A stretch of 64,000 nucleotides of DNA from an uncultured Bacteroidota bacterium (GTDB lineage Bacteria > Bacteroidota > Bacteroidia > Bacteroidales > UBA12077): contig CAJXLK010000017.1 in the NCBI GenBank assembly GCA_913055635.1, forward strand, positions 1 to 64,000, read 5' to 3'. The notes beneath the pieces were generated by a model that worked only from the letters and a program-made list of their open reading frames with translations, had not been told where the DNA came from and did no database searches. Shown piece after piece: positions 1 to 10,198 of the stretch. How positions within the stretch are numbered: the stretch's first letter is position 1; every line of letters begins with the position of its first letter. The translations under genes and the position numbers were made by a program.

Positions 1-67
1 AACGCGGCGGTCTTGAAAACCGTTGTCCGGTATCCCCGGACCGGGGGTTCGAATCCCTCTTCCTCCG
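1..67 (+). tRNA. tRNA-Ser(TGA), 3' part
   Basis: The window opens inside a tRNA. The anticodon arm is visible at 7-23: a 5-bp stem closes a seven-base loop with anticodon TGA at 14-16, which reads UCA. A long variable arm follows (TCCGG paired with CCGGA), and this is typical of serine tRNAs. Next come a T arm with the GTTCGAATC core and the 3' acceptor strand TCCTCC plus discriminator G. No CCA is encoded (CCG follows), so CCA would be added after transcription. The 5' acceptor and D arm lie outside the window. Confidence 0.9.
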
Positions 68-101
68 CCGGTTTTTAACCCTGAAATTTCAATTGACCCG
101 C

Positions 102-329: not shown

Positions 330-2678
330 TTAAAAACGCATCCCCATCAGCAGGACATCGGCATGCTGGGGCGCTTCACCCTTCCAGTTTTCCCAGTACT
401 CAACGACCTTCTCTTTCTGCTGATGAGCCGGCAGCTGATGCACCTCAGATAAAAGTCCCCTCAATCGTTCAAGGCCCATCTCCTGCTGCCGGTCCTGGCT
501 TTTCTGCCGGTATAAGCCCCTGGTAAAGAGATAAATCATATCCTGGGGCTGTAAATCCAGCACCCGGGATTGAAAGGACTCTTCAAGCTGAGTTTGCCTG
601 GCAATGGAAATATCATCGGGTAAAAATTCGATCAGCTCACCCTGGCGGTAAAGGTAAAGGGGACGTTGCGACCCGGCAAACTGTAACCGATGCCCGGGCA
701 GATCCCAGACGCAAAGGGCCACTTCCAACTTATCGTGGTCATCCTCAGCCGGATCCTCTTGCTGAAGGGCATGAGCAACTTTATGCCGCAGGCGGTTTAA
801 AAGTTCCCCCGCCTGGAAGTGTTCCATCCCGGCAGCGGCTTCATTCAAAAAAGACATCCCCAACATGCTCATGAAAGCCCCAGGCACGCCATGGCCAGTG
901 CATCCGACCACCGCAAAGGCAATTTGATCATTCTTCTGACGCACCCAGTAGAAATCACCGCTAACCATGTCGCGGGGCTGAAAAAAAAGAAAATGACCAC
1001 GGAACAATTGCCGGAGGGTCCGGGTCGACATCAGCAGGCTCGACTGAATCCGACGGGCGTACTGTCCTTCACGAATAAGCTCCGAGTCCTTGTTGTGCAA
1101 CTCCTCCTTTTTACTTTGGGTCAACTGGCGCTGGCGTTCCAATTCATCACGCTGGCGGCTGATCTGCTCATTCTGCTGCAACAACTCTTCATTTTGGCTC
1201 TCTATCTCTTCCTTTTGTTCGGCCAATAAACGATAGGACCGGCGCTTGTTGCGGTAATAGATATAAATCAATACCGACAAAATCAACACCACCAACCCGC
1301 CCCCCATAAGGGCATATTTCTCTACCTCATGCTTTTCGATGAGGTCCTGCTGACGGTTGAGCAAGTGCTCCTGGCGCTCGATCTCCTTTTGCTTTTGCTC
1401 GAGTTGATAACGTGTCTCAATGGCTTCAACCATCTGATTCTTTTCTTTATTAAAAAGACGGTCTTCAATTTGCTCGAATTGCCGGGTAAAAGAAAGGGCT
1501 TTCCGGTAATTGCCACGCTTCTCAAAGGCCTGGGCTAAAATCTTAAGCGATTTTTTCTGCTGAAGGGGAATCTCAAGTGAATCAGCTAGCTCTTTACCCT
1601 GGCGGGCAATATTTATGGCCCGCGGTATTTGCTCCTGCTTAAGATGCACTTTAGCCATGGAGATCATGTCCTCGGCCATCCCCTTCTTATCACCTATCTC
1701 ATTGTCCAGCTTTAGGGCATCATGTAAATAATCCTGCGAGCGATTATAATCCCCCTTTTTCATATAGATCATGGCCAGATTGGAATAAACCCCCGATATA
1801 CCACGCTTGTCATTGACCTTCCTGCGGTATTCCAGGGATTCCTCGAAATTTTCACGGGCCCGGGGAATTTGATTTTGCTTGAGGTGGACCTCACCCAAAT
1901 TGTTCAAACAGGTGCCTATATTGGGAACATTACCAATCCTGCGGTTCAACTCCAGGGCGCGACGGTAATATTGTCGGGCCTTGAAATAATTCTGCTGCTC
2001 CTCAAAAACATTGCCGATGTTGTTGTAACAGGCCGATATCCCCTGATGATCATTGATCTTTTCAAAGTGTTCCAACCCCTTCTTATAAAAAGAAACAGCC
2101 TGGGTGTAATTGCCGAATTGAAAATGAATATTCCCCAGGTTATTGTTGGCTTGTCCGAGTTTTTCAGTATTGTTGCCCTGGCTGGTCGAATCCTTCAGTT
2201 GGCCGGCCATCTCCTGGCGAATGCCGGCGGCTTTTTGATAATATTCCAGGGCTTTGCTGAAATTTCCCTGATTTTTGTGGATCACCCCCAAATTGTTATA
2301 TCCATTGGCCATGCCTCCCCTGTCACCGGCTTTTTCTTTCAGAGCAATGGACTTTCTCAGATACCGGATGGTTTGATCGTATTCCGAACGGTAAATATAG
2401 ACCACCGCGATGTAATTCAAACATTTCCCTGCCAGGCGGGTATATCCCCCTTCTTTAGCCAGATTCAGGGCTTCCCGGTAATAACTCAGGGCCGAATCCT
2501 GTTGACGGTACTGGTATAAATCGCCCAGATCCAGGTAATGCAAAGCTTTTAAGGAATCGTTGGAAGTCTTATCGATCAGGTGGACAATTGAATCATGCTT
2601 CCGGTCTTTTTGGCCCTGACTCAGCAGGGGCAGCAATAAAAGCAGGAACAAAAAGCATGGTTTCTTGCAGATCCGCAT
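330..2678 (-). CDS. TPR-repeat membrane protein with degenerate SpoIIE/PP2C-like domain
   Basis: 782 aa. A signal peptide (about residues 1-22) is followed by tandem TPR units from about residue 40 to 400, a single membrane helix at about 455-475, a coiled coil, and a C-terminal SpoIIE-type domain from about 560. This is the usual architecture of Bacteroidota TPR/SpoIIE proteins: periplasmic TPRs sensing something and a cytoplasmic phosphatase domain. The domain keeps GDFYW (D575) and TGHGVPGAF. However, the metal-binding Asp just before CTGHG is Gly (G592), the Asp expected in the FTDG motif is Arg (R720), and the terminal DD pair is reduced to A773-D774. The fold is clear, but phosphatase activity is doubtful. 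The start is the ATG directly before the signal peptide. It stands alone with 300 bp on its 5' side, and I see no recognisable partner gene. Confidence 0.85.
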   Translation of the reverse strand: MRICKKPCFLFLLLLLPLLSQGQKDRKHDSIVHLIDKTSNDSLKALHYLDLGDLYQYRQQDSALSYYREALNLAKEGGYTRLAGKCLNYIAVVYIYRSEYDQTIRYLRKSIALKEKAGDRGGMANGYNNLGVIHKNQGNFSKALEYYQKAAGIRQEMAGQLKDSTSQGNNTEKLGQANNNLGNIHFQFGNYTQAVSFYKKGLEHFEKINDHQGISACYNNIGNVFEEQQNYFKARQYYRRALELNRRIGNVPNIGTCLNNLGEVHLKQNQIPRARENFEESLEYRRKVNDKRGISGVYSNLAMIYMKKGDYNRSQDYLHDALKLDNEIGDKKGMAEDMISMAKVHLKQEQIPRAINIARQGKELADSLEIPLQQKKSLKILAQAFEKRGNYRKALSFTRQFEQIEDRLFNKEKNQMVEAIETRYQLEQKQKEIERQEHLLNRQQDLIEKHEVEKYALMGGGLVVLILSVLIYIYYRNKRRSYRLLAEQKEEIESQNEELLQQNEQISRQRDELERQRQLTQSKKEELHNKDSELIREGQYARRIQSSLLMSTRTLRQLFRGHFLFFQPRDMVSGDFYWVRQKNDQIAFAVVGCTGHGVPGAFMSMLGMSFLNEAAAGMEHFQAGELLNRLRHKVAHALQQEDPAEDDHDKLEVALCVWDLPGHRLQFAGSQRPLYLYRQGELIEFLPDDISIARQTQLEESFQSRVLDLQPQDMIYLFTRGLYRQKSQDRQQEMGLERLRGLLSEVHQLPAHQQKEKVVEYWENWKGEAPQHADVLLMGMRF

Positions 2679-7993: not shown

Positions 7994-10198
7994 ATGGAGA
8001 TATACCTGGATTACAACGCCACCACCCCGGTTGACGGGGAAGTGGCAGCAGCAATGAAGCCCTACATGGAGCAGTATTTTGGCAATCCTTCCAGTTTCCA
8101 TCGCTTTGGCACTGACTCAAAGAAAGCAGTTGAAAAGGCGCGCAAACAGGTTGCCGGGTTGCTTAACGGTTCCGCGCACGAGGTGGTATTTACCAGTGGC
8201 GGGACGGAGTCCAATAATTTTGCCATCAAGGGAGTGGCCTGGGCCCACCGCGAGCGGGGCAACCACATCATCACCTCTCAGGTGGAGCATCCGGCTGTGA
8301 TGGAGGTATGCAGGTATCTGGAAGGCCAGGGCTACCGGGTTACCTATCTGCCGGTCGATGCTTACGGGCTGGTAAGTGAATCAGACCTGCAAGCGGCCAT
8401 CACCCAGCAAACCATACTGGTTAGCATTATGCATGCCAACAATGAGATTGGCACGATCCAGCCCATAGAGGAACTGGCCCGGATTGCCAGGGAAAACAAC
8501 ATCCTCTTTCATACCGATGCGGCCCAGTCCACCGGAAAGATCCCGGTTGATGTCAAAAAACTGGGGGTCGATTTGCTTTCTGTGGCCGGTCATAAGCTGT
8601 ATGGCCCCAAAGGTGTGGGAGTCTTATACATCCGCGAAGGGGTTCAGCTGGAAAAAATGATGCACGGGGCCGACCACGAACGAAACCTGCGGGCCGGAAC
8701 CGAAAACGTCATTGAGATTGTGGGCCTGGGCCAGGCCAGCGAGGTGGCAGCAAGAGACCTGGAGGCCAACACCGAACAGATGCAAAAAACCCGTGACCGA
8801 CTTTATCATAACCTCGCCGACGAAATCAGCGACTTGCGGGTCAATGGTCCCGAAAAACGGATTTTGCCCAACACCCTTTCGGTGAGTTTTCCCGGCATTG
8901 AGGCCAACCTGCTGGTTAAAGAGATCTCGGAAAAAGGCATTGCCGCTTCGGCTGGAGCCGCCTGTCATGCCGACCAGGTAGATGTTTCCCAGGTACTTGA
9001 AGCCATCGGGCTTGATCAACGCTATGCCATGGGCACCCTGCGTTTTTCTACCGGTAAGATGACCACGGAAAAAGAAGTGGATGATGCGGCAGCGATCATC
9101 ATCCAGGCCGTCCGAAATTTGTCTTCACAAGGGGATCAGCCCCCTGAAGCATCCCCGGCCATCCACCTTACCCGGTATACCCAGGGGATGGGCTGTGCCT
9201 GTAAGCTAAGGCCGCAGGAGTTGGAAAAAATCCTGCGCGAAATCCCCGTCACCGAGGATGCCAACATCCTGGTCGACACCCGTGGTTCGGATGACGCCGC
9301 GGTTTACCGGGTTGGTCCACAAACGGCCATCGTCCAAAGCCTCGATTTCTTTACCCCCGTCGTTGATCAGCCCTATGATTTTGGCGCCATAGCCGCGGCC
9401 AATGCCCTGAGTGATGTCTATGCCATGGGGGCCGTACCGGCTTTTGCTCTGAACATCGTCGGCTTCCCCTCCAACCGCCTGCCCATGTCGGTCTTGCAGG
9501 ATATTCTGGAGGGGGCCCGGGACAAAGCCAGGGAAGCCGGCATCGCCATCCTGGGCGGGCACACCATCGACGACCCCGAACCCAAATACGGCATGGTCGT
9601 TACCGGCACGGTCCATCCCGACCATGTCCTCCAAAACAAAGGGGCCCGCCCGGGCGATCGCCTGATCCTGACCAAACCCATTGGCACCGGCATCCTCGCC
9701 ACGGCCATGCAAAGACAAATGGCCGGGAAAGAGGACATAAACCGCCTTGTCAGGGTTATGAGTGAACTCAACCGCCAGGCCGCCGAAGTGATTGCTCACT
9801 ACCCGGTCCACGCCTGTACCGATGTCACCGGCTTTGGCCTGTTGGGCCACCTCCATGAGATGACCCTGGCCGGGGGCATCAATGCAGAGATCACCGCCGG
9901 CCGGGTGCCCCTGATAGAAGGAACATGGGATCATGCCACCGCCAACATGATCCCTGGCGGCTCACGCAACAACCTGGATTACCTGAGCCAACACCTGAGC
10001 TGGGATGAAGGAATACCCCAGATCCAGCGCCTGATCCTCTCTGATGCCCAAACATCCGGGGGACTGCTCTTTGCCATTGATCCTCAATATGAAAACGCCA
10101 TCCTCCAAGACCTCAAAAAAGCCGGCGTTGATGCCGCCACATCGCTCGGTTCCTTCACCCAGGAAGGCCCCGGGCGCATCACCATCAAAAAAGAGTAA
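7994..10198 (+). CDS. fusion: cysteine desulfurase (NifS-like) - selenophosphate synthetase (SelD)
   Basis: 734 aa with two complete enzymes in one frame. Residues 1-380 are a class V PLP aminotransferase-fold desulfurase: YLDYNATTP at the start, the HTDAAQ motif, the PLP lysine K201 in GHKLYGPKG and the persulfide cysteine C324 in SAGAACHADQ. Residues about 395-734 are SelD: the catalytic Cys/Lys pair C401 and K404 in GMGCACKL, the metal-binding region around GSDDAAVY, SLDFFTPVVD, GGHTIDDPEPKYG and ACTDVTGFGLLGH. SelD uses ATP to activate selenide, and the NifS part can release selenium from selenocysteine or sulfur from cysteine. The fusion therefore suggests direct hand-over of selenide to SelD. 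Catalytic residue 401 is a TGT cysteine, not a TGA-encoded selenocysteine. No selA, selB or ybbB lies in the window, so whether the product feeds Sec-tRNA or selenouridine is open. Codon use matches the neighbours. Confidence 0.93.
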   Translation: MEIYLDYNATTPVDGEVAAAMKPYMEQYFGNPSSFHRFGTDSKKAVEKARKQVAGLLNGSAHEVVFTSGGTESNNFAIKGVAWAHRERGNHIITSQVEHPAVMEVCRYLEGQGYRVTYLPVDAYGLVSESDLQAAITQQTILVSIMHANNEIGTIQPIEELARIARENNILFHTDAAQSTGKIPVDVKKLGVDLLSVAGHKLYGPKGVGVLYIREGVQLEKMMHGADHERNLRAGTENVIEIVGLGQASEVAARDLEANTEQMQKTRDRLYHNLADEISDLRVNGPEKRILPNTLSVSFPGIEANLLVKEISEKGIAASAGAACHADQVDVSQVLEAIGLDQRYAMGTLRFSTGKMTTEKEVDDAAAIIIQAVRNLSSQGDQPPEASPAIHLTRYTQGMGCACKLRPQELEKILREIPVTEDANILVDTRGSDDAAVYRVGPQTAIVQSLDFFTPVVDQPYDFGAIAAANALSDVYAMGAVPAFALNIVGFPSNRLPMSVLQDILEGARDKAREAGIAILGGHTIDDPEPKYGMVVTGTVHPDHVLQNKGARPGDRLILTKPIGTGILATAMQRQMAGKEDINRLVRVMSELNRQAAEVIAHYPVHACTDVTGFGLLGHLHEMTLAGGINAEITAGRVPLIEGTWDHATANMIPGGSRNNLDYLSQHLSWDEGIPQIQRLILSDAQTSGGLLFAIDPQYENAILQDLKKAGVDAATSLGSFTQEGPGRITIKKE

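Follow-up and report, generated by a model that had tools for sequence, protein, structure and literature searches.

The gene at 330..2678 on the minus strand of the window (the whole stretch of 64,000 nucleotides analysed, positions 1-64,000 of contig CAJXLK010000017.1 in assembly GCA_913055635.1, from an uncultured Bacteroidota bacterium of GTDB Bacteroidales UBA12077, labelled here genome G000, contig G000:C17) encodes a 782 aa TPR-TM-coil-SpoIIE sensor protein in which catalysis has very probably been lost. All three aspartates that supply the M1/M2 side-chain ligands of an active PPM/PP2C metallophosphatase are replaced (3/3), and the protein combines these losses with a maintained frame and, by prediction, the fold, as a PP2C-fold pseudophosphatase does. 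It is likely a maintained, folded pseudophosphatase. The account tentatively preferred here, at a little below an even chance, is that an active SiaA-like SpoIIE/PP2C sensor phosphatase gave rise to a membrane sensor pseudophosphatase that works as a regulated non-catalytic binding module. The original prediction had proposed a protein that captures phosphorylated partners without cleaving them. A putative phosphoprotein-capturing role is possible, and the loss of catalysis is well supported by the loss of three side-chain ligands, the existence of an intact orthologue, the predicted retention of the fold, and the conservation of the TPR part.

The open frame was assigned by Pfam to TPR_12 (8.6e-51) and SpoIIE (6.4e-15); all features given below lie on the minus strand. 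A signal-peptide-like N-terminus was read at residues 1-23 (2610..2678), followed by the TPR sensor region and linker at residues 24-445 (1344..2609), which were delimited using Pfam and identity to the orthologues. A hydrophobic stretch at residues 456-475 (1254..1313) was taken by eye as a TM helix, and an E/Q/N-rich stretch at residues 481-559 (1002..1238) was similarly taken as a coiled coil together with the region preceding the PP2C domain. The degenerate SpoIIE/PP2C domain itself occupies residues 560-782 (333..1001), based on Pfam, the predicted model, and structural alignment to 6k4e. Given the N-terminus and the TM helix, the TPRs would be periplasmic and the SpoIIE domain cytoplasmic. 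The SpoIIE (PF07228) match covers residues 582-780 and scores 56.0 bits against a curated cut-off of 25, which places the domain in the family. The NCBIfam SiaA profile (NF038263) aligned over residues 483-782 with an equivalog score of 135.9 bits, below its cut-off of 700, and the protein was rejected as a SiaA orthologue.

Metal-site residues were identified by alignment to the SiaA-PP2C structure 6k4e, the only confident solved relative by sequence (2.8e-21), and by comparison with an orthologue. Gly592 (GGA, 903..905), Arg720 (AGG, 519..521), and Ala773 (GCC, 360..362) fall on the metal-ligand residues D474, D600, and D653 of SiaA. These three and D457 are among its conserved active-site residues, and its M1 and M2 metals are coordinated by three conserved aspartates (PMC7647112; this and the other papers are cited from the available portions of their text). 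D628, D746, and D795 are the putative metal-coordinating side chains of SpoIIE (PMC5468089), and by motif order they would correspond to SiaA D474, D600, and D653, respectively. The original prediction had placed glycine at the Asp before CTGHG and arginine at the Asp of the FTDG turn, had noted the loss of one member of the terminal DD pair, and had assigned the replaced Asp residues to metal binding; each of these points was upheld by the alignment and by an orthologue (C199, below) with Asp (GAT) at both 592 and 720. Ala773 stands in place of Asp next to a retained Asp774, and because Ala773 falls on SiaA D653, matched to SpoIIE D795, the lost residue of the pair is its ligand half. Asp575, which aligns with SiaA D457, is also retained. 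The third metal of SiaA is assisted by D604 and D534 (PMC7647112), whose positions are taken in the query by Arg724 (507..509) and Glu652 (723..725). Both replacements are common to the query and the G004 orthologue described below, as is Arg672 (663..665), which is Asn in the intact orthologue.

The frequency of such losses was assessed in 58 SpoIIE rows from five congeneric genomes, consisting of 57 Pfam matches (14 in the query genome and 43 in the four other genomes) and one frame cut by a contig end. Among rows with letters at the site, Asp was present in 55 of 57 at 592 (the exceptions being the query and the G004 orthologue), in 56 of 57 at 720, and in 52 of 53 at 773 (the query being the exception at both); one row was without letters at 592 and 720, and five at 773. 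The same two exceptions were found when the sample was widened to 81 distinct domains of the genus, the family, and three genomes of the order, a set that overlaps the first, is biased to well-scoring matches, lacks letters at 773 in 14 rows, and does not include the own-genome domain L014. Chance or common degeneration was ruled out, as just 2 of the 58 genus rows have a residue other than Asp at 592, 720, or 773, counting only positions with letters. General conservation was evaluated using a reference of 42 of the 58 rows, from which other subtypes, the partial row, and the three orthologues were excluded, and in which 41 columns were conserved at ≥90%. The query keeps 28 of the 41 columns, the G004 orthologue 20, and the C199 orthologue 36; left-out reference rows keep at least 80% of conserved columns (median 98%). 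Metal-shell acids account for five of the 13 conserved columns lost by the query.

Two orthologues were found in the genus, G002:C199 (60% identical) and G004:C50 (52%). The C199 orthologue is syntenic with the query and keeps every ligand. The G004 orthologue keeps Asp at 720 and 773, has Asn at 592 (D592N), and carries AGGGSLQG in place of CTGHGVPG. The question raised in the original prediction, whether orthologues share G592 and R720, was thus answered in part: neither has these residues, C199 having Asp at both and G004 having Asn592 and Asp720, but the G004 copy is broken at 592 as well. States common to the query and G004 and present in no outgroup are E652, R672, R724, and E733, with no identical replacement at a ligand site; these fit one common first step, although convergence is possible. 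Over residues 1-445 the query is 65.8% and 59.1% identical to the two orthologues, and the C-terminal MGxRF is retained by all three proteins. Within the order, of which 149 genomes were sampled, no more distant orthologue with the same losses was found at E 1e-110; the three non-own matches were 31-34% identical and retained the ligands. In a scan of genome contigs, from which own records may be left out, the G004 copy was the only close relative found.

In all three loci the gene is flanked by a tRNA-Ser and, in the other direction, by RlmD, a serine hydrolase, Crp, Hsp20, and a cysteine desulfurase-SelD ORF; the neighbors were named by reading of their sequences, with a Pfam scan for the last ORF alone, which is cut by the contig end in C199. 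This ORF is at 7994-10198 (+) in the window and encodes 734 aa with a cysteine-desulfurase-like domain (Aminotran_5, 3-363) fused to AIRS and AIRS_C (433-731), the latter part being read as SelD, and near-full-length matches to it are present in G004 (L076) and G003 (L115). The window contig begins within a truncated tRNA-Ser at 1-69 (+), approximately 260 bases from the query gene and on the opposite strand to it; in the G004 and C199 loci a tRNA-Ser(TGA) is on the gene's own strand, a switch that points to an inversion or to an effect of assembly where the contig ends. The flanking block occurs a second time in the G002 bin, on G002:C7, where the query-type gene is missing beside RlmD. As this RlmD groups with G003, and that of C199 with G000 and G004, C199 is probably a foreign (contaminant) contig in the G002 bin, yet its sequence still comes from a close relative. 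Absence of the query gene from G001 is not claimed, because RlmD is also missing there at 1e-60 and the region may be unassembled; the G003 genome is 57% complete. At 5/5 fetched loci of genus g2, RlmD has a SpoIIE domain no more than about 1 kb away; at one of these loci (L118, 7000-8394, minus strand) the gene adjoining RlmD is a different SpoIIE gene, whose 464 aa product has intact ligands and an N-terminus that looks multi-TM (L084 in the 81-domain set). RlmD of G012:C155 was recovered as two matches (L100/L103), one with an in-frame TGA.

The branching of the three copies was examined with several markers. Five concatenated neighbor proteins paired C199 and G004, but weakly (support of 55/56, with the alternatives at p 0.21 and 0.32), and RlmD with a larger outgroup gave the same pair (91/88). 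The TPR part, again weakly, paired the query and C199 (69/68, with the alternatives at p 0.09 and 0.26). The query was joined with G004 by the SpoIIE part (96/93; alternatives p 0.03) and by the whole protein (97/96), in both cases with a warning from the tool that long branches were joined. The order of events among the three orthologues thus differs by the marker used.

The PP2C alpha-beta-beta-alpha fold is predicted to be kept in the query domain. AlphaFold2 was run with a six-row alignment on query residues 540-782 and gave a model with pLDDT 85.0 and pTM 0.86, which VIA-align matched to SiaA 6k4e with Z 31.1 and 2.1 A over 231 residues; a TM of 0.88 to 6k4e was also obtained (values that describe the model only). 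Further matches of the model were Rv1364c (Z 22.4), P. aeruginosa RssB (22.2), SpoIIE 5ucg (20.0), and TAB1 2pop (16.0). A predicted fold is in itself no sign of function. Two of the new arginines lie within residues 720-729, a stretch that was modelled poorly (block mean 64, with pLDDT under 50 at 727-732). The G004 domain model had pLDDT 75.4 and pTM 0.79, and matched 6k4e with Z 25.8 and 2.8 A over 226 residues.

The main rival to a binding sensor is that selection acts only on the TPR part, leaving the SpoIIE domain as a catalytically dead passenger whose constraint is relaxed and which is heading for loss; this is considered possible, although rather less probable than the preferred account. 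Evidence for it comes from evolutionary rates, which were compared in quick, outgroup-rooted trees of the same 14 proteins, with the TPR part taken as residues 24-445. The ratio of SpoIIE to TPR terminal-branch length was 4.33 for the query and 3.23 for G004, against 0.17-1.14 in 12/12 intact relatives including C199, and it was still high (6.06 and 5.27) after either broken copy was dropped. More careful trees, in which the TM helix and coil were included in the TPR segment, gave SpoIIE/TPR lengths of 0.93/0.39 and 0.98/0.26 for the broken copies and 0.17/0.14 for C199, with the ratio of the other 12 proteins reaching about 1.2. The replacements also differ between the query and G004 lineages, as expected for a passenger, and G004 retains only 20 of the 41 conserved columns. 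SpoIIE acceleration accompanies ligand loss in the outgroup-rooted trees, a contrast that does not appear in a three-sequence codon model: there the dN of SpoIIE over TPR for C199 (2.1) falls between those for the query (1.8) and G004 (2.2), and a single omega for all branches, broken and intact alike, was not rejected (p 0.45). This model has no outgroup, and any stem common to the query and G004 would fall on its C199 branch.

Against a passenger stand the selection estimates and the state of the frame. On the query SpoIIE branch omega was 0.03 and omega 1 was rejected (p 0.007); synonymous sites are saturated (dS 9), and the omegas are rough. On the G004 SpoIIE branch, likewise saturated, omega was 0.29 and omega 1 was not rejected (p 0.13), which favors the passenger for that copy. 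The query frame is open to its conserved last residues, with no indel relative to C199 over 223 codons, and either broken copy has 0 stops and at most one indel codon. Neutral simulations started from the C199 segment nearly always gained stops, remaining stop-free in 0/3000 at the query divergence and 1/3000 at the G004 divergence. When just 10% of the differences were made neutral, one third of simulations stayed stop-free, and therefore a short recent neutral phase is possible. The fold is still predicted for both the query and the G004 domains, and the MGxRF end in all three copies also speaks for maintenance.

A second alternative, regarded as doubtful, is a regulatory subunit: the dead PP2C domain would pair through the coil and N-terminal helices with an active paralogue and relay the TPR signal to it. 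SiaA-PP2C forms a homodimer through alpha1-3 (PMC7647112), and residues 481-559 of the query are better conserved relative to the two orthologues (57.0% and 53.2% identity) than is its SpoIIE domain (48.9% and 38.7%). The genome contains 13 other SpoIIE matches, at least one of the same architecture (L020), but the best full-length paralogue is just 30% identical.

Returning to the preferred reading of a regulated, non-catalytic binding module, the protein would lack a hold on M1 and M2, to judge from its sequence, and hence would not hydrolyze phosphoproteins. A signal sensed by the TPRs would pass through the TM helix and coil to the PP2C fold, which would bind or release a partner in the cytoplasm, the ten SiaC-family adaptors of the genome being the most plausible candidates. 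A bound partner might be shielded from active paralogue phosphatases or from a kinase. A SiaC-type partner is the natural candidate because a profile search returned ten SiaC-family matches in the query genome, some of them near SpoIIE genes (C22:15911 by C22:16912, and C38:34843 by C38:35805). No SiaC-family gene was found on the contigs of the three loci (G000:C17, G002:C199, and G004:C50), and the neighbors of the query, by reading alone, are other than siaB/siaD. In SiaA the loop after the DG motif is a SiaC contact proposed from docking and simulation (PMC7647112). The conserved glycine of this loop is lost in all three orthologues, the intact C199 included, and the diverged loop counts against a SiaC-type partner for the query. 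The SpoIIE match at C1:132112 is separated by about 4 kb from three consecutive SiaC-family matches at G000:C1:127283-128545. The genome also contains 17 HATPase (PF13581) matches, 15 of them in frames of at least 272 aa and the other two in frames of only 138 and 143 aa.

A more specific proposal, slightly more doubtful than that of a regulatory subunit, is that R720 and R724, in place of two acids, and R672, gained in the conserved GAxNP turn, may form a metal-free positive pocket that reads a phosphorylated Sia-type adaptor. If so, a phosphatase sensor would have become a phosphoprotein reader within one genus, and intact, partly changed, and fully changed copies could be compared.

Continued phosphatase activity of the query through other ligands or a single metal is judged improbable. 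Asp575 and Asp774 are retained, and TAB1 and PHLPP2 have been reported with a single metal, though without activity (PMC12002173). Set against this, three side-chain ligands are lost, one of them and a neighboring acid are now Arg, and mutating any metal-coordinating residue abrogates PP2C activity (PMC13358185). That the ligand replacements are sequencing or assembly errors is very unlikely, because the codons GGA, AGG, and GCC differ from the three GAT codons of C199 by 2, 3, and 2 nucleotides (7 in total); the contig does start in a truncated tRNA close to the gene, and a MAG origin of the genome is possible, but the frame is open, two other assemblies show the same synteny on the RlmD side, and the G004 orthologue is broken too. 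The original prediction was to be abandoned if orthologues had Asp at both sites and reads exposed sequencing errors: C199 does have Asp at both, but the multi-nucleotide codon changes and the differently broken G004 copy speak against the error.

What is new here is a TPR-sensor, SiaA-like pseudophosphatase whose metal site was lost within one genus while a syntenic relative is intact. No bacterial SpoIIE-type pseudophosphatase besides RssB was found among the papers listed in the literature search, most subscription papers being outside it, and the words 'inactive' and 'missing' were not found in the available portion of PMC2887360. At this locus the metal site is intact in one syntenic copy, partly broken in another, and fully broken in the third, which would allow the transition to be followed across three closely related proteins; counting SpoIIE domains in such a genome does not exactly give the number of phosphatases. 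New activities of the PP2C fold have been proposed to arise via a non-catalytic pseudoenzyme that keeps the regulatory switch, with RssB as the example (PMC5468089).

The query is probably a phosphatase relative without enzymatic function, a kind already described elsewhere: PP2C-fold pseudoenzymes are known in bacteria (RssB; PMC5468089) and in animals (TAB1 and PHLPP2; PMC12002173). SiaA (the biofilm regulation PP2C phosphatase of P. aeruginosa, 6k4e, NF038263) resembles the query in predicted fold, and SiaC-family proteins occur in the query genome; it differs in that the metal Asp residues are present, whereas the query has a TPR sensor and no SiaC match on its contig. RssB is a PP2C switch without phosphatase function that serves as a protease adaptor (PMC5468089). 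Its P. aeruginosa structures matched the query model with Z about 21-22, although at a structural-alignment identity of 15-18%, and the query differs in having a TPR sensor and a TM helix. RssB carries a receiver domain, and its target is sigma S. SpoIIE and RsbU of Bacillus share the PF07228 domain with the query, but they keep the metal ligands and are active on STAS proteins (PMC11418112). PHLPP2 and TAB1 are like the query in their lost metal ligands and proposed scaffold role, with an active ancestor shown for PHLPP (PMC12002173, PMC13358185). They are unlike it in being eukaryotic and having other partners; TAB1 keeps one metal in its M2 site, and PHLPP activity was lost in the metazoan ancestor, whereas that of the query was probably lost within one bacterial genus.
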